The position numbers were made by a program, and so were the translations under genes. A stretch of 35,379 bases of DNA from the IMG/VR virus record IMGVR_UViG_3300032285_000304, positions 1-35,379 of that record; one strand, written 5' to 3'. Shown here one piece after another: positions 8,463 to 28,931 of the stretch. Within the stretch, counting starts at the first letter, position 1. Each line of letters begins with the position of its first letter. The notes beneath the pieces are model-generated. The model was not told the DNA's origin. It saw nothing but the letters and a program-made list of their open reading frames with translations, and made no database searches. This stretch comes from a virus.

Positions 8463-8775
8463 AGAGGGATTTGAACGCTGCTCAAAGCTCGCAAGCATCA
8501 TTTTGAATAAACACATCACAATCTACGATGTTGCAATCATTATGGCTGCGATAAAGCTTTCCAGAATTACATCAACACCAACGCTTGATGATAATTACAT
8601 TGACGGCATCAACTATCTGGCTTTTGCTTCGCAGTTCAGCACTTCTGAAGAGCAGGCAAAGGTTGCAATTGAAGAGGACATCGCTGCAATGGCTCGTAAG
8701 TTTGCGCCGAAGCGTTCTGACTTTGTCGATATTCCGCAAATCGTACCCACCGAGATGCCGAAGCCACAGGAATAA
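8386..8775 (+). CDS. DUF6378-type phage protein (129 aa)
   Basis: The protein starts ILKQAANILGDRGRRYGSVE, has FERCSKLASIIL and YDVAIIMAAIKLSRI in the middle, and DDNYIDGINYLAFA further on. This order is that of a small phage family that I recall as DUF6378; function unknown. The ATG at 8386 follows AAGGAA. It is the last gene before the intrinsic terminator at 8781. Confidence 0.85.
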   Translation: MTNHTDILKQAANILGDRGRRYGSVEEGFERCSKLASIILNKHITIYDVAIIMAAIKLSRITSTPTLDDNYIDGINYLAFASQFSTSEEQAKVAIEEDIAAMARKFAPKRSDFVDIPQIVPTEMPKPQE

Positions 8776-8780
8776 AAATA

Positions 8781-8808
8781 GGGTGGCGGGGAAACTCGCC
8801 GCCTTTTT
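8781..8808 (+). terminator. Rho-independent terminator inside the rightward early unit
   Basis: A 7-bp GC stem (8782-8788 with 8797-8803, one G-T pair) with an 8-base loop is followed by TTTTT. It begins 6 bases past the stop of the DUF6378 gene and 17 bases before the GcrA gene. It is the only hairpin noted in the window that has a proper T-run. Confidence 0.8.
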
Positions 8809-8824
8809 CAACTGGAGATTTATT

Positions 8825-9292
8825 ATGACTACAAAAAAAGAATTGAATGACCGTGACTACGAAATCATCAAGCTTTGGGAATCTGGCCTCACAGGCAGTC
8901 AAATTGCTAAAGAGTTGCTAACCACACGCAGCGCAATCCTTGGCAAGCTGCGCCGCCTCCGTTTAGACGGCTATGTTTCCTATAAAATGAACGTCAAAGT
9001 TGATTTGAAATCAGCTACCAAGAAAGAAATTAAAGAGGCTAAGTCTTACAATCTACACAGAAAAAGCATTCGAGGTGTCCATCCTCCCATGCCGCTGCCA
9101 AAGCCAAAACCGATCAAACACGAGCCAATCAAGTTTATGGACCTGACGCCGTTATCATGCCGATATGTGGTCAACGAAGGCCATGCCTCGACGTTTCTTT
9201 TCTGCGGAAAACCAAAGGTCAAAGGTTCCTATTGCGATGATCATGCTAAGATTTGCTATATCCCATCGAAACATAAAGGGCAGGCCGCATGA
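8825..9292 (+). CDS. GcrA-family cell-cycle regulator homologue
   Basis: Host GcrA binds sigma70 and methylated GANTC promoters and drives the alphaproteobacterial cell cycle. This 155-residue protein keeps the layout: helix-turn-helix (LWESGLTGSQIAKELLTTRS at 17-36, then AILGKLRRL), a basic/proline linker (PPMPLPKPKPIKHE), and a C-terminal C-x14-C-x9-C-x2-H motif (C112, C127, C137, H140: CRYV, FCG, YCDDH). The ATG at 8825 follows TGGAGA. It starts after a strong terminator, so it probably has its own promoter or relies on read-through. It could redirect host GcrA-dependent promoters. Confidence 0.88.
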   Translation: MTTKKELNDRDYEIIKLWESGLTGSQIAKELLTTRSAILGKLRRLRLDGYVSYKMNVKVDLKSATKKEIKEAKSYNLHRKSIRGVHPPMPLPKPKPIKHEPIKFMDLTPLSCRYVVNEGHASTFLFCGKPKVKGSYCDDHAKICYIPSKHKGQAA

Positions 9293-23823: not shown

Positions 23824-24342
23824 TCACGCAGCTTTTGCCATCTGGAGGCCGACAGCTTTAACTTCTTCCACACGGCGACCCCAGCCCTTGCCAAAGGTTC
23901 CCCAAGTCGGCAGCTTCTGGAGAAAGTCGAGGCGCATGTCGCAAATGGCATCAACGGTCTGTTCTGAGTCGCAAGCCAAAATAGCATCCATCGACTTGGG
24001 GCCGATCACGCCATCGTCAGGCACCCCAGCGATACGCTGGAGATACTTAGCGGCACGGCCAGTGCCAGAATTAACCGCCAAGTCGTACGCTGCATAATCC
24101 ACGCCAGATGGAAGTTGATCGCCTTTGATCTTGTCCCAATAGTTCTTTTTATACAAAGGTTTAACAGCATCTGGCGTCAAGGCCCGCATCTCTGATTCGT
24201 CAACTTCTCTGCCGACAAACTCTTCCCAAACCTTTTTGGTCACGCCAAGATTTGTCATGCCGCCCGGGTCTTTTGGATTGTTCACATAACCGCCCTCATG
24301 TTTGAGGACCATCTGGAAGGATTTTTCCCAATTCTCGTTCAT
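23824..24342 (-). CDS. GH108-type endolysin (N-acetylmuramidase)
   Basis: It cuts peptidoglycan at the end of infection. The N-terminal domain has the family motif KHEGGYVNNPKDPGGMTNLG (residues 14-33) with catalytic E16. The second half (DLAVNSGTGRAAKYLQRIAG, then DDGVIGPKSMDAI) is the C-terminal peptidoglycan-binding domain. At 172 residues it is of usual length. The start is the ATG at 24342, overlapping the holin stop (TGATG). No signal sequence is present, so it needs the holin. Confidence 0.93.
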   Translation of the reverse strand: MNENWEKSFQMVLKHEGGYVNNPKDPGGMTNLGVTKKVWEEFVGREVDESEMRALTPDAVKPLYKKNYWDKIKGDQLPSGVDYAAYDLAVNSGTGRAAKYLQRIAGVPDDGVIGPKSMDAILACDSEQTVDAICDMRLDFLQKLPTWGTFGKGWGRRVEEVKAVGLQMAKAA

Positions 24343-24866
24343 TTGCCGAGTTCCTTTGATGTCAGCGCATCCGTCTTGGCCTTCGAGCCAGCCGACGAGC
24401 CATAATAGAAGTTTACAACACCCGTCCAAGCCGTGCCGAGAGCGCCAAGCATCATCAGCAAGGCTTCTGTGCCGTTTTTGGGCATCCCGTTGACGAGCAT
24501 CCAGACAAGGATGCCAAAGAAGCCGACTGTGATGGCGACAGCCAAGACTTTCGGCACCCAGTCCTTTGTCTCCATCTGCATCTTGCGGGCGCTGTCACGA
24601 TCTGCGGCGCTAATGCGTTCCAGATCAATGTCCAGTTCCTTCATGCGGGTCTTGAAGTCGGCGTCGATCTTTTTAATGTCCGAAAGCTGTTCGGGCGTGG
24701 CGCTGCCAAGAGCCTTTGATAAATCTTCTTCAGTGCCCTCTTCGTGCCCCAGCAGCACATTGGACAGGGTTTTGACAGCCAAGCCAGCCATCGGGCCACC
24801 CAGTGCGGTGGCGAGGGTTGGTGCAACCTGACCCAGAAGGGGGCCAAAACTTTTCAAAAGGTCCAT
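24339..24866 (-). CDS. 3TM-type holin
   Basis: The protein has a hydrophobic Gly/Ala N-terminus (VAPTLATALGGPMAGLAVKT, about residues 14-33), a charged middle (about 45-100: TPEQLSDIKKIDADFKTRMK), and two transmembrane segments (VLAVAITVGFFGILVWMLV, about 107-125, and LLMMLGALGTAWTGVVNFYY). This fits the family annotated as GTA/phage 3TM holin. It is coupled to the endolysin. GGAGG precedes the ATG at 24866. Confidence 0.9.
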   Translation of the reverse strand: MDLLKSFGPLLGQVAPTLATALGGPMAGLAVKTLSNVLLGHEEGTEEDLSKALGSATPEQLSDIKKIDADFKTRMKELDIDLERISAADRDSARKMQMETKDWVPKVLAVAITVGFFGILVWMLVNGMPKNGTEALLMMLGALGTAWTGVVNFYYGSSAGSKAKTDALTSKELGK

Positions 24867-25349: not shown

Positions 25350-25570
25350 TATTTGTCTGCCTTTGCATCCAGCTTGTCAAAAATCTGCTTGAGAATGGCC
25401 TTAACTTCAGTGATGTCAGCGCGATAATCGTCTTTGGCGACATATTCTTTGGGCAGCTCCGCAACACGGTCTTCCAATTTTTGGATTTTGCGCGTGGTTG
25501 TATTCAATACATACACCGCGAGAAACCCTGCGATGGAAACGACCATGTTGAAGAGCTGCTGGGTGTCCAT
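25349..25570 (-). CDS. Small membrane protein with coiled coil (73 aa)
   Basis: One N-terminal transmembrane segment (about residues 7-23: NMVVSIAGFLAVYVLN) is followed by a charged coiled coil (TRKIQKLEDRVAELPKEYVA, then a second helix). This layout is common in lysis-region accessory proteins and could be an i-spanin-like or antiholin-type protein; a matching outer-membrane spanin is not visible. It is coupled on both sides by TAATG overlaps. Confidence 0.8.
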   Translation of the reverse strand: MDTQQLFNMVVSIAGFLAVYVLNTTTRKIQKLEDRVAELPKEYVAKDDYRADITEVKAILKQIFDKLDAKADK

Positions 25571-25758
25571 TATTGAACCGTTTCCTCTGGTTCGGTGCCA
25601 TCAATGGCGTCTTTGGCTTCAGCCACAACCTGTTCACCCTGTGCCTTAATGGCAGAGATGATTTCGTTCACTTCCGCAAATGGGCGCTGGCCCAGAGCGT
25701 TCAGAACCAAGTTCCACTGAGCCAGTGTCAGCTTGATGTCGATTGGCAGATTTTCCAT
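25570..25758 (-). CDS. Small conserved phage protein (62 aa)
   Basis: The pattern LTLAQWNLVLNALGQRPFAE and VNEIISAIKAQGEQV is a recurring small phage protein near lysis and tail genes; function unknown to me. It is soluble, helical and acidic at the C-terminus. Its ATG overlaps the TctC-like stop, and its stop overlaps the next start, each as TAATG. Confidence 0.8.
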   Translation of the reverse strand: MENLPIDIKLTLAQWNLVLNALGQRPFAEVNEIISAIKAQGEQVVAEAKDAIDGTEPEETVQ

Positions 25759-26714
25759 TAACTTCCCCTCTGAAATTCAGAAATTCGACGGACAATCTTT
25801 TGGTCCGTCGATACCATTGATCTTACTATTTCTTGCGTCTCATTCCAAGAGAGCGGGGACGGAACGACCCCTATTTTGGTGGCATCGGCCTGATATTCGG
25901 GGTCTGTGACAGTCCGCTCAAACAAAGTGCGAAGATACGCAAGGCGAAGCTCTGGTACGCCGGGAGGTGCCGCAAATGGGCGCGACAAAATCAAAAGGCG
26001 TTCAAACGCTTCAACCAGCTTCCGGTCTTCTTCTGTCGCGGCCAATTCCATCGCAGTCGTGACAAATTGAAGGCTCTTATGACGAATGCGCCCATTGCCA
26101 TATTGGATCAATGGCAGGATCGTCGTGTCAGTCAGCCAAGCGGGGCTGGTCGTGCGGATGCCAGTCAGGCTGTAGGCAACCAGATTGATCTCACCACGCT
26201 CAAAAGCCAGCTTGGCCTGTGTGCTGTCGGCATAGCCGACCACTTCCTTCATATCCCAACGCAGGACGCTGTTGATGAGGCGAACATGATTGATGGATGA
26301 GCCACCCTCTATGCCAGCCACCAGCGGGTCTGATCCGGCCTTTGACCAGAACACAAAAGGTTCGCGCCGACCATCGACCGCAGAACCTAGCCAGCCAAAT
26401 TTGCTGATGTCGTATTTGACACTCTCACCTTTGGCGAGAAACTGAACGGGGACGCGGCTGTCGAGGGTTCCGATCTCTGTGCCATCTTTTGGTGCCACGT
26501 TGTAAAGGTAATTGGCAGCAGAGACGCCAGCAGCGCCCGGAACAGCTTTGATCGTGACAGGTTGGCCCGAATACTTCTTTAAGTGCTGTGCAAAAACACG
26601 CGCATGGATCATATACCCACCGCTGACCGTGTGGACAATGATCTTTAGCTCTTCAGCCGCCGCGCCAGCAGTTAAGATTAGCCAGATTAAGGTACAGTAT
26701 AGGAACTGGGCCAT
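25758..26714 (-). CDS. Bug/TctC-family periplasmic solute-binding protein
   Basis: Bacterial members bind carboxylates for tripartite tricarboxylate transporters. The N-terminus MAQFLYCTLIWLILTAGAAA is a hydrophobic signal-like peptide with a likely cut before EELK. Family sequence follows: RVFAQHLKKYSGQPVTIKAV, then PGAAGVSAANYLYNVAPKDG (about residues 59-78), the conserved segment of Bug proteins, and a long C-terminal lobe (about 318 residues total, normal). It overlaps the PP-loop gene by 28 bases and is joined to the lysis genes by TAATG, so it belongs to the phage operon. No TctA/TctB membrane genes are present. An ATG at 26729 is an alternative start. Confidence 0.87.
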   Translation of the reverse strand: MAQFLYCTLIWLILTAGAAAEELKIIVHTVSGGYMIHARVFAQHLKKYSGQPVTIKAVPGAAGVSAANYLYNVAPKDGTEIGTLDSRVPVQFLAKGESVKYDISKFGWLGSAVDGRREPFVFWSKAGSDPLVAGIEGGSSINHVRLINSVLRWDMKEVVGYADSTQAKLAFERGEINLVAYSLTGIRTTSPAWLTDTTILPLIQYGNGRIRHKSLQFVTTAMELAATEEDRKLVEAFERLLILSRPFAAPPGVPELRLAYLRTLFERTVTDPEYQADATKIGVVPSPLSWNETQEIVRSMVSTDQKIVRRISEFQRGS

Positions 26715-27475
26715 GTCGGCACATCCCATGTATTGAGTTCATTTGGCTGCTGTCCAGCAACCCATGACCTCATGCTGTACCATTTGCCATTTGGCAACAT
26801 GCAATTTGCTTTAGCAGTTGCACCAGCTTCTGCTGGCGTTTTTCCTTCATTGAGTTGTTTTTTAAACCAAGATGTTTTGTCAGATTTTAATTTATCTGAA
26901 GTTTTTGGATACCGAACCAAGTCAATTAGCTCTTTTGGCATTTCAGCCAATGCGTAAGCTTGATTGTAATCCATATCCAAAAGTGTAAATTCAACGCTCC
27001 CGCGAGTTGCATTCGCGATAAAAAGTTCACGGGCTACCCACGAGCCGGGACGGCGCGTCTCCCCAATTGTTCCACCATTACCAAAACCATCATTTTCCCA
27101 CTCATGCGACAAGCAAATACGATCAAATTCAAAATTATTGATCTTTGGAATAGCATAACGAGCGAAATACCCCGCTGTATTGTTTGGCAACATAGGGTCT
27201 TGGGCAAGAAGCTCTTCCACAATAGGTTCTTGGATAAATGTGAAATTGCGAACATTCTCATTAAGCCATGAAGAAATTGCAGTTAATTTTCCCACTTGAT
27301 CTGGAGAAAAATCTTCGCGAGCAAAAGTGCGAATTTCATAATTTAAGAATAGGCTTTGGTCAGTATTGCCAAGATCAAAATTGATGGCCGAAATCTCATC
27401 GGAAGTCTCAGTCAGAAGCTTCCAAAGCAGATAAGTTGAGTCCATGCCACCAGTTAAAGTTACAAGCGTTTTCAT
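26687..27475 (-). CDS. PP-loop (N-type ATP pyrophosphatase) family protein
   Basis: The first 21 residues hold a PP-loop (LTGGMDSTYLLWKLL, with TGGMDST in place of SGGxDS), the ATP site of enzymes such as QueC, asparagine synthetase and tRNA-modifying ligases. Later parts (FDRICLSHEWENDGFGNGG, KANCMLPNGKWYSMRSW) do not show the zinc-binding cysteine cluster of QueC, so I do not call it QueC. Substrate unknown: a nucleotide or small molecule to be adenylated. The gene looks AT-richer than its neighbours. The ATG at 27475 overlaps the upstream stop (TAATG). Confidence 0.82.
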   Translation of the reverse strand: MKTLVTLTGGMDSTYLLWKLLTETSDEISAINFDLGNTDQSLFLNYEIRTFAREDFSPDQVGKLTAISSWLNENVRNFTFIQEPIVEELLAQDPMLPNNTAGYFARYAIPKINNFEFDRICLSHEWENDGFGNGGTIGETRRPGSWVARELFIANATRGSVEFTLLDMDYNQAYALAEMPKELIDLVRYPKTSDKLKSDKTSWFKKQLNEGKTPAEAGATAKANCMLPNGKWYSMRSWVAGQQPNELNTWDVPTWPSSYTVP

Positions 27476-27858
27476 TATGCTGTCCGATCCAAAATAATGT
27501 CCCACTCTTGTGAAATGTCATCCCAAACAGCCGCATACCCATTTGGAACTTCTGGTTTTGAAATTGGAGCTTCCCATTTGCCAGTTTCTGTATTCAAAGT
27601 CCAAGACGCAGGAATTTCAGAACGCAAAAAAACGTCTGCGCTTGGAACATAAAAATCTCCAGAACTAGCAAAAACACCACGAAAGTTGCCGTTGTAACTT
27701 GTTTGCTTCCAAAAAGTATTATCTCCAAAAATGGATTGGCAGAATGTAATTCCAATAGGTTCGCTTTCTGGAAACTCAAGATTTTCAATGTCATCGTTGT
27801 TTACAACGATAACTCTTAAAACCATGTTGTTTTCATCAAGTTCAGCAAAATGCGCCAT
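27475..27858 (-). CDS. Tail-associated conserved phage protein (127 aa)
   Basis: MAHFAELDENNMVLRVIVVN at the start and KQTSYNGNFRGVFASSGDFY in the middle are typical of a small protein found next to fibre genes in many aquatic phages, especially cyanophages. It may be a fibre accessory or chaperone; function unproven. It lies 8 bases downstream of the glycine-rich adhesin. Confidence 0.82.
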   Translation of the reverse strand: MAHFAELDENNMVLRVIVVNNDDIENLEFPESEPIGITFCQSIFGDNTFWKQTSYNGNFRGVFASSGDFYVPSADVFLRSEIPASWTLNTETGKWEAPISKPEVPNGYAAVWDDISQEWDIILDRTA

Positions 27859-27866
27859 ATTTCACC

Positions 27867-28931
27867 TTACTGATATTGATAGCGGATAATGACGATACCG
27901 GAACCACCTGTGCCACCATTATATTGACCAGTAAATCCACTTTGATGGCCGCAACCACCACCGCCGCCGCCAGTATTATTCGTTCCATTGCCACCGTTTG
28001 TGTTGCCAGTTCCCTGCCCACCACCACCAGAGCCACCAGCGCCACCAGCATTGCCGATACCGTAAAGACCGCCACCGCCACCGCCACCGTAATAAACAGA
28101 TGAACCAGAAATAGAGGAAGCAACGCCAATACCGCCAACGCCACCCGCCGTTCCAGACGCATTACCGCCAGTTGCACCCGCGCCGCCGCCACCACCTGAC
28201 CCATAGCTAGGCGATACGTCAGCACCAGAACCGCCGCTATTCCCGTAAGATGTCCATCCAGAATATGTGTTTTTATTGGAAGTGCCGGGATTGCTGGAAT
28301 AGTTACCACCACCACCACCAGAACCGCCAGCAACCCCGTTGCCAGCGCCATAAGCACCACCACCACCGCCGCCTTTTGCAACAAAGCTTGCGGTAAACGA
28401 TGAGTCCCCACCATTTGATCCAAGCGTACCAATAGTTCCGGGTTTGCTATTGCCCGGTCCACCCGGCCCACCAGCACCAACAGTAATTGCATAAGATGTA
28501 ACTGAAGCGGCATATGCGCTATTTGTTAAAACTTGACCAGCACCACCACCGCCTGTGGTTCGAGCATAACCGGGGGCAACGCTATTTCCAGCGCCACCGC
28601 CGCCACCAGCAACAACAAGAATTTCAAGGTTATTATTGACATTACCAAGAGAAGAAACTGTAAATGTTCCAGACCCCGTAAAGGTATGAATTTTATAATT
28701 GCCACTGGTCGTAATCGTCCCGCCCGTTGCAACGATAAATGTCTGGTTTGCAGTTGGCCCCGTGCCATAAAACGCATTCATGCTGATTGCGCCGGACGAA
28801 AATGTGAACGGCCCAGCGGTGGACGTATAGTAAGTCGTCCCGCGATATGCGTTCAAATTATTCCCGCGACCAAACAACGTGTTGATGTCATTGATTGAAA
28901 TAGCGCCGGATGATGGAAGATAAGTAGCCAT
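27867..28931 (-). CDS. Glycine-rich tail adhesin (354 aa)
   Basis: The N-terminal 70 residues (SGAISINDINTLFGRGNNLN, later SGAISMNAFYG) are a common attachment segment of phage glycine-rich proteins. A beta segment (YKIHTFTGSGTFTVSSLG) leads into about 230 residues dominated by glycine runs, the hallmark of adhesin glycine-rich motifs. It ends GGSGIVIIRYQYQ. It is coupled to the upstream fibre by TAATG, matching the arrangement of the other fibre/adhesin pair. Long open frames on both strands here come from the GGN codon bias. Confidence 0.85.
   Translation of the reverse strand: MATYLPSSGAISINDINTLFGRGNNLNAYRGTTYYTSTAGPFTFSSGAISMNAFYGTGPTANQTFIVATGGTITTSGNYKIHTFTGSGTFTVSSLGNVNNNLEILVVAGGGGGAGNSVAPGYARTTGGGGAGQVLTNSAYAASVTSYAITVGAGGPGGPGNSKPGTIGTLGSNGGDSSFTASFVAKGGGGGGAYGAGNGVAGGSGGGGGNYSSNPGTSNKNTYSGWTSYGNSGGSGADVSPSYGSGGGGGAGATGGNASGTAGGVGGIGVASSISGSSVYYGGGGGGGLYGIGNAGGAGGSGGGGQGTGNTNGGNGTNNTGGGGGGCGHQSGFTGQYNGGTGGSGIVIIRYQYQ

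Follow-up and report, generated by a model that had tools for sequence, protein, structure and literature searches.

A predicted TctC-type solute-binding protein and a putative PP-loop ATPase are encoded by a conserved gene pair in phages

The window analyzed here, a whole virus record of 35,379 bases, carries a gene for a putative PP-loop ATPase and, overlapping its end, a gene for a predicted secreted solute-binding protein of the TctC/Bug type. These two genes almost certainly represent a conserved viral pair. Judged from sequences and structural models, they form a phage-specific two-gene module in a cargo slot between fibre and lysis (or fibre and neck) genes. No published description of the pair was found in searches covering an open-access library.

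On the minus strand, the genes run in the order fibre, glycine-rich protein, 127-aa protein, PP-loop protein, TctC-like protein, three small proteins, 175-aa protein, GH108 endolysin, and structural genes (Table 1). This order bears out the preliminary description of the DNA, made from the sequence alone, which had placed a PP-loop enzyme and a secreted TctC/Bug-type protein between the fibre and lysis genes; both reading frames are open and intact, folds are predicted for both products, and both families are conserved in many other phage contigs. The overlap of the two genes and the TAATG coupling of the TctC gene to the following 62-aa gene were likewise found as described, and a further TAATG couples the 127-aa gene to the PP-loop gene. 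Promoter-like sites were near the shuffled expectation and terminator-like sites slightly above it in our scans, none of them decisive, and a tRNA scan found no tRNA genes.

Table 1. Features of the window from the tail fibre to the endolysin
Feature	Position	Strand	Basis
Long tail fibre, 1534 aa	28931..33535	(-)	
Glycine-rich protein (Gly_rich_2), putative fibre tip/adhesin	27867..28931	(-)	
127-aa protein, phrog_7759 family	27475..27858	(-)	
Putative PP-loop protein (N-type ATP pyrophosphatase) of the QueC-like superfamily, 262 aa; P-loop reads TGGMDS, zinc site lost	26687..27475	(-)	
Predicted TctC/Bug-type (TTT family) solute-binding protein, 318 aa from ATG 26714, predicted Sec signal peptide	25758..26714	(-)	
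Predicted signal peptide MAQFLYCTLIWLILTAGAAA, mature start EELKI	26655..26714	(-)	script and inspection
Overlap of PP-loop 3' end and TctC 5' end, 28 nt	26687..26714	(-)	
62-aa protein; its start overlaps the TctC stop (TAATG)	25570..25758	(-)	
175-aa protein (phrog_1544), holin-like position	24339..24866	(-)	
Endolysin, GH108 and peptidoglycan-binding domain	23824..24342	(-)	

Elsewhere in the window, positions 8585-9292 (+) encode a GcrA-type cell-cycle regulator (Pfam, 1.2e-18), the presence of which would agree with an alphaproteobacterial host. The endolysin type varies at the same place among related contigs, here denoted by L numbers (window 23824-24342, L005:7224-7955, L024:8021-8617), as a modular exchange. 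Also, a glycine-rich protein sits between TctC and the lysis genes in L001 (L001:7172-7966), with similar ones in L002 and L008.

The TctC-like frame starts at ATG 26714 or 26729 and stops at 25758, which corresponds to a length of 318 to 323 aa. Its AF2 model (pLDDT 86, pTM 0.80) retains the binding fold with good confidence, the structure prediction having been proposed beforehand as a check. Compared with the 11 solved TTT binding proteins listed, the model gave Z scores of 19.7 to 24.8, versus 13.4 for the best other binding protein, and the top 17 chains in a Foldseek search were all of the TTT type. The window protein alone matches Pfam TctC weakly (4.6e-4; 20.2 bits versus a curated cut-off of 27); it matches alphaproteobacterial paralogues at E 5e-50, and a mixed viral and bacterial profile matches TBP at 4e-11. 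A hydrophobic N terminus and an A-x-A-type site recur in the viral TctC copies (script and inspection, no dedicated predictor), and by script and inspection no lipobox was seen at the N terminus of the window protein. Since the single-sequence Pfam matches are weak, the names TctC and, for the neighboring protein, QueC-like PP-loop rest on fold, profile, and family evidence. By its predicted fold, its sequence relationship, and its predicted export signal, the frame can be assigned to a secreted TctC/Bug-type binding protein.

The glycine loops are mostly retained in the alignment of viral TctC proteins. Five positions (D114, R116, E136, T220, and E238) are invariant or almost so among the viral proteins and variable or different in 31 bacterial copies, and where the bacterial GGGYD motif has its Asp the viral ones carry another residue. 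Together, the fixed positions and the loss of this Asp suggest that the viral copies may share one ligand, distinct from that of their bacterial relatives. A search of 17 viral records, mostly fragments, found no TctA (the search control was positive in five genomes), in line with the initial remark that transporter genes are missing. Because none was found in these records, the viral TctC is filed as an orphan binding protein and not as a transport system.

TctC-like proteins were found in IMG/VR phage contigs of several backbones, namely that of the window (L001, L005, L002, and others), a second (L015, L016, L031, L032), a third (L029, L030), and also in T4-like neck regions (L017-L022, L064-L072). 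The claim that such a protein is a rare phage cargo calls for amendment: 50,697 phage records contained no match to queries made with three proteins of the TctC type, one of the second lineage, and two PP-loop proteins, yet the gene is recurrent in IMG/VR. A dN/dS of 0.06 to 0.10 indicates strong purifying selection on TctC, and the range over both the TctC and PP-loop families is 0.06 to 0.16.

A careful tree split 18 viral TctC rows from 31 alphaproteobacterial rows with support of 100/100, and in a quick tree 30 viral rows, some of them second or third copies, formed one clade with support of 99; both trees are unrooted, and their bacterial rows are the best matches found only. The phylogeny suggested at the outset thus gives the viral copies a clade of their own, with homologues not confined to bacteria. 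Six alphaproteobacterial genomes hold 87 to 150 TctC paralogues each at E 1e-10, the best of them 34 to 39% identical, and these numbers agree with the expansions in PMC5994714; bacteria commonly carry orphan TctC proteins (PMC5994714, PMC11452294). Among 289 genomes sampled from the same class, no bacterial TctC relative was better than the strict limit of E 1e-50. Furthermore, a pattern-based scan of genome contigs gave relatives only 27 to 35% identical, and those on plasmids were at most about 33% identical. A fresh acquisition from bacteria was rejected, as the 289 genomes, the genome contigs, and the plasmids gave only distant relatives. Judged by these comparisons, the viral TctC is an apparently long-standing viral lineage of its own and not a recent host gene.

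The AF2 model of the PP-loop protein (pLDDT 86, pTM 0.87) matched ThiI (Z 12.6), QueC (12.4), argininosuccinate synthase (12.3), LarE (11.9), and Cap9 (11.3), within a range of Z 11 to 12.6, and QatC was also among the fold similarities. Alone, the window protein matches Pfam QueC weakly (0.02); matches occur in 8 of 15 family members, at best 2.2e-7, and QueC gave the only PADLOC matches of note. The phosphate-binding loop reads TGGMDS in the window and SGGxDS or NGGLDS in nearly all relatives. The C(x)8CxxCxxC zinc motif is absent from the window protein and its close relatives, and distant members (L022, L029-L032, L062, L064, L069, L070) keep a C-xn-CxxCxxC variant cluster. Neither YxQxHxxE nor VPxRN, the canonical QueC motifs (PMC13329287), was found in a pattern search of the PP-loop members (0/21). 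A search of six alphaproteobacterial genomes, run without a positive control, gave no PP-loop relatives. The window protein is accordingly described here as a predicted PP-loop ATPase of the QueC-like superfamily, with an HUP-type fold and an N-terminal PP-loop; synthesis of preQ0 is not indicated by its sequence. DNA 7-deazaguanine modification was considered and set aside on a search for QueD alone, which found none in the 17 viral records.

The same pair was looked for in related phages. Profiles built here defined a core PP-loop family (E below 1e-60) on 24 contigs, and TctC adjoins the PP-loop gene in 22 of them; for one of the 22 (L028/L004, a single 58-kb contig) the genes lie at opposite ends and the adjacency is inferred. 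In the two exceptions, L024 and L088, the PP-loop gene stands without TctC. L024 has lost TctC except for its opening codons (L024:4769-4860), and its PP-loop gene is intact. Three orientations of the pair occur: same-strand (window, L029-L032, L062), head-to-head (L064, L069, L070, L080, L082), and tail-to-tail (L022, L072). On the T4-like contig L070 (L070:4938-10879), genes of alternating orientation run TctC, two 2OG-Fe(II) oxygenases, PP-loop, TctC, PP-loop, TctC. Furthermore, there is a second type of pair, in which a different PP-loop gene (about 405 aa, SGGxDS) overlaps a second TctC lineage (L066:5054-7197, L068:5873-7967), with Pfam TctC matches of 2.4e-13 in L066 and 8.3e-11 in L068, above the Pfam cut-off. 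A relative of this second pair is present in L017 and L018; the secreted protein of L017 alone has no Pfam match and is weak by hhalign, with TctC matches only in its relatives L066-L068. TctC and PP-loop protein distances correlate (r 0.82, Mantel p 0.0005), which shared phage ancestry alone could produce.

No TctC adjoins the weaker PP-loop relatives (L033, L034, L095-L099), and several T4-like contigs carry TctC beside 2OG-Fe(II) oxygenases and not beside a PP-loop gene. Two contigs show three clustered PP-loop-like genes after fibre/glycine-rich genes, without TctC (L033:6339-8556, L094:4007-6711). A further one (L092:4004-6199) carries a PP-loop gene, a 149-aa gene, and then a gene for an exported ABC-type binding protein (SBP_bac_6, 2.4e-11).

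The two genes differ in base composition, as the preliminary description had stated: GC is 0.42 and GC3 0.35 in the PP-loop gene, against 0.53 and 0.57 in TctC. Its suggestion of separate acquisitions was not supported as far as fresh ones from bacteria are concerned: the pair is old and conserved in phages, and the contrast appears to reflect an allelic swap. Compared with L001/L005, the 127-aa and PP-loop genes (GC 0.39 to 0.42) are 55 to 61% identical, TctC 90 to 91%, and the fibre 79 to 85%; the identity changes abruptly at about 26680-26720, where the genes overlap, marking a recombination junction. The simplest reading is that the 127-aa and PP-loop genes were probably replaced as a block by a diverged allele through homologous exchange with a lower-GC relative. 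Since this swap left TctC in place, tight co-adaptation of the PP-loop protein and TctC seems not to be required, and the swap argues somewhat against it.

The 127-aa family (phrog_7759) is present in cyanophages, pelagiphages, and others, and in many aquatic phages its gene closes the fibre module. Three of four cultured phages inspected have 2OG-Fe(II) oxygenase genes adjoining or near the 127-aa gene; in the fourth none was annotated. Genes after TctC in relatives encode a glycosyltransferase (L014, L062), a DUF6065-like protein (L013, L016), and, by inspection, a methyltransferase-like protein (L013). These differing enzymes near the 127-aa gene and after TctC mark the pair as one occupant of a variable cargo site.

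The conservation of the pair as a separate viral lineage, together with its two predicted functions, suggests that during infection these uncultured phages control how some small molecule is taken up and processed. We tentatively favor, while holding it short of probable, a mechanism of capture, import, and activation. The pair would be expressed late, together with structural and lysis genes; the exported TctC would bind a small periplasmic solute, probably one with a carboxylate group, and pass it to a TctAB-type carrier of the host. Orphan TctC proteins that share membrane partners have been proposed for bacteria (PMC11452294). The PP-loop enzyme in the cytoplasm would then act like QueC, NadE, or GuaA and adenylate the solute or a product formed from it there, so that it could be amidated or conjugated for infection. 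This mechanism is consistent with the TTT fold, the viral clade, the signal peptides recognizable across viral copies, the purifying selection, and the frequency of orphan TctC proteins in bacteria (PMC5994714, PMC11452294). The adjacency in 22 of 24 contigs, the varied gene order, the alternation in L070, the second pair type, and the distance correlation also speak for it. Against it stand the lack of TctA in the 17 viral records, most of them fragments, the exchange of the PP-loop gene with the 127-aa gene while TctC stayed unchanged, and the part of the distance correlation owed to shared phage ancestry. Moreover, the PP-loop gene persists in L024 and L088 where TctC is missing, TctC genes of several T4-like contigs lie beside 2OG-Fe(II) oxygenases instead, and late import would leave a lytic phage limited time for a payoff.

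A bolder version, which we regard as doubtful, sees a dedicated capture-and-activate system evolved by aquatic phages, where every exported binding protein has a PP-loop enzyme of its own as partner. It would comprise at least two TctC lineages and perhaps the ABC-type one in L092, and the infected cell would import a specific outside molecule used solely by the phage enzyme.

Alternatively, the genes may be independent neighbors, TctC being a lone nutrient-scavenging auxiliary gene like cyanophage PstS, a known phage-borne binding protein (PMC6359870), and the PP-loop gene belonging with the 127-aa gene to the fibre module, for example to modify fibre or surface components. The joint swap of the 127-aa and PP-loop genes with TctC left behind, the PP-loop genes lacking TctC in L088 and L024, and the 2OG-Fe(II) oxygenases near the 127-aa gene of cultured relatives all fit such an arrangement. 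However, a shared slot does not easily explain the adjacency in 22 of 24 contigs, the three orientations, the L070 pairs, and the second pair type, and we consider independence unlikely, though not negligibly so.

Control of superinfection or of a receptor, with the exported protein occupying or blocking a periplasmic or envelope component and so excluding competing phages, appears improbable. The protein is predicted to be secreted, its gene holds a late position next to the lysis genes and the fibre genes, the latter a site of host-range functions, and the residues fixed in the viral clade differ from those of bacterial paralogues; but the binding-protein fold and glycine loops are kept, no lipobox was seen, and the PP-loop partner would be left unexplained. 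Somewhat more improbable still is a QueC-like protein-modifying pair, in which the PP-loop protein couples a small molecule to the exported TctC or to the fibre as Cap9 and QatC do. Those two each have as target a partner that their own system encodes (PMC13279940, PMC13329287), the fold resembles QueC, Cap9, and QatC, and distant members keep the QueC-type cysteine cluster. The window protein, however, has neither this cluster nor the canonical QueC motifs, the TctC N terminus is a predicted cleaved signal peptide, and no QueD was found in the 17 viral records.

Recruitment of the TctC fold as a tail or adhesin part of the virion is very improbable: the location between fibre and lysis genes would suit it, but the viral copies have signal peptides and those of L029 and L030 lie away from fibre genes. 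An artefact of assembly, or a fusion of bacterial DNA with a phage contig, could account for the composition step at the PP-loop/TctC border and is nevertheless practically excluded, since the gene order recurs across many viral contigs that were assembled independently; on these contigs host capture by chimera was likewise rejected.

The pair presents a solute-binding protein as a long-standing viral lineage repeatedly linked to ATP-dependent enzymes. Were this link functional, phages would control which substances the infected cell takes up and their fate there, beyond boosting host nutrient pathways. Furthermore, as a defined protein that can be purified, the viral TctC offers a way to find out what is bound by orphan TctC proteins, of which some Alphaproteobacteria have hundreds.

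Compared with known systems, the viral TctC resembles the TTT binding proteins (TctC/Bug) in its predicted fold, signal peptide, glycine loop after the first strand, and PGA(A/G) motif, and the orphan TTT members in the absence of adjacent membrane genes. It differs from bacterial members by its own clade, the replaced Asp of GGGYD, and the five fixed positions. The PP-loop protein shares with QueC, Cap9, and QatC the PP-loop fold with an SGGxDS-type motif, and distant viral members the C-xn-CxxCxxC cluster, whereas the window protein lacks the cysteine cluster, YxQxHxxE/VPxRN occur in none of the 21 members, and QueD was not found in the 17 viral records. Two reports mention TTT-like genes of viral contigs in passing: one has a tctA domain match from a SUP05 viral contig (PMC4164917), the other an island of a myovirus with genes for "tricarboxylate transport" (PMC8115048). 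The passages found describe no TctC/PP-loop pair. Cyanophage PstS and other phage-borne uptake genes provide the parallel of a phage-encoded periplasmic binding protein thought to aid uptake by host machinery (PMC6359870); PstS belongs to another fold family and ligand class, whereas the viral TctC is paired with a putative PP-loop ATPase.
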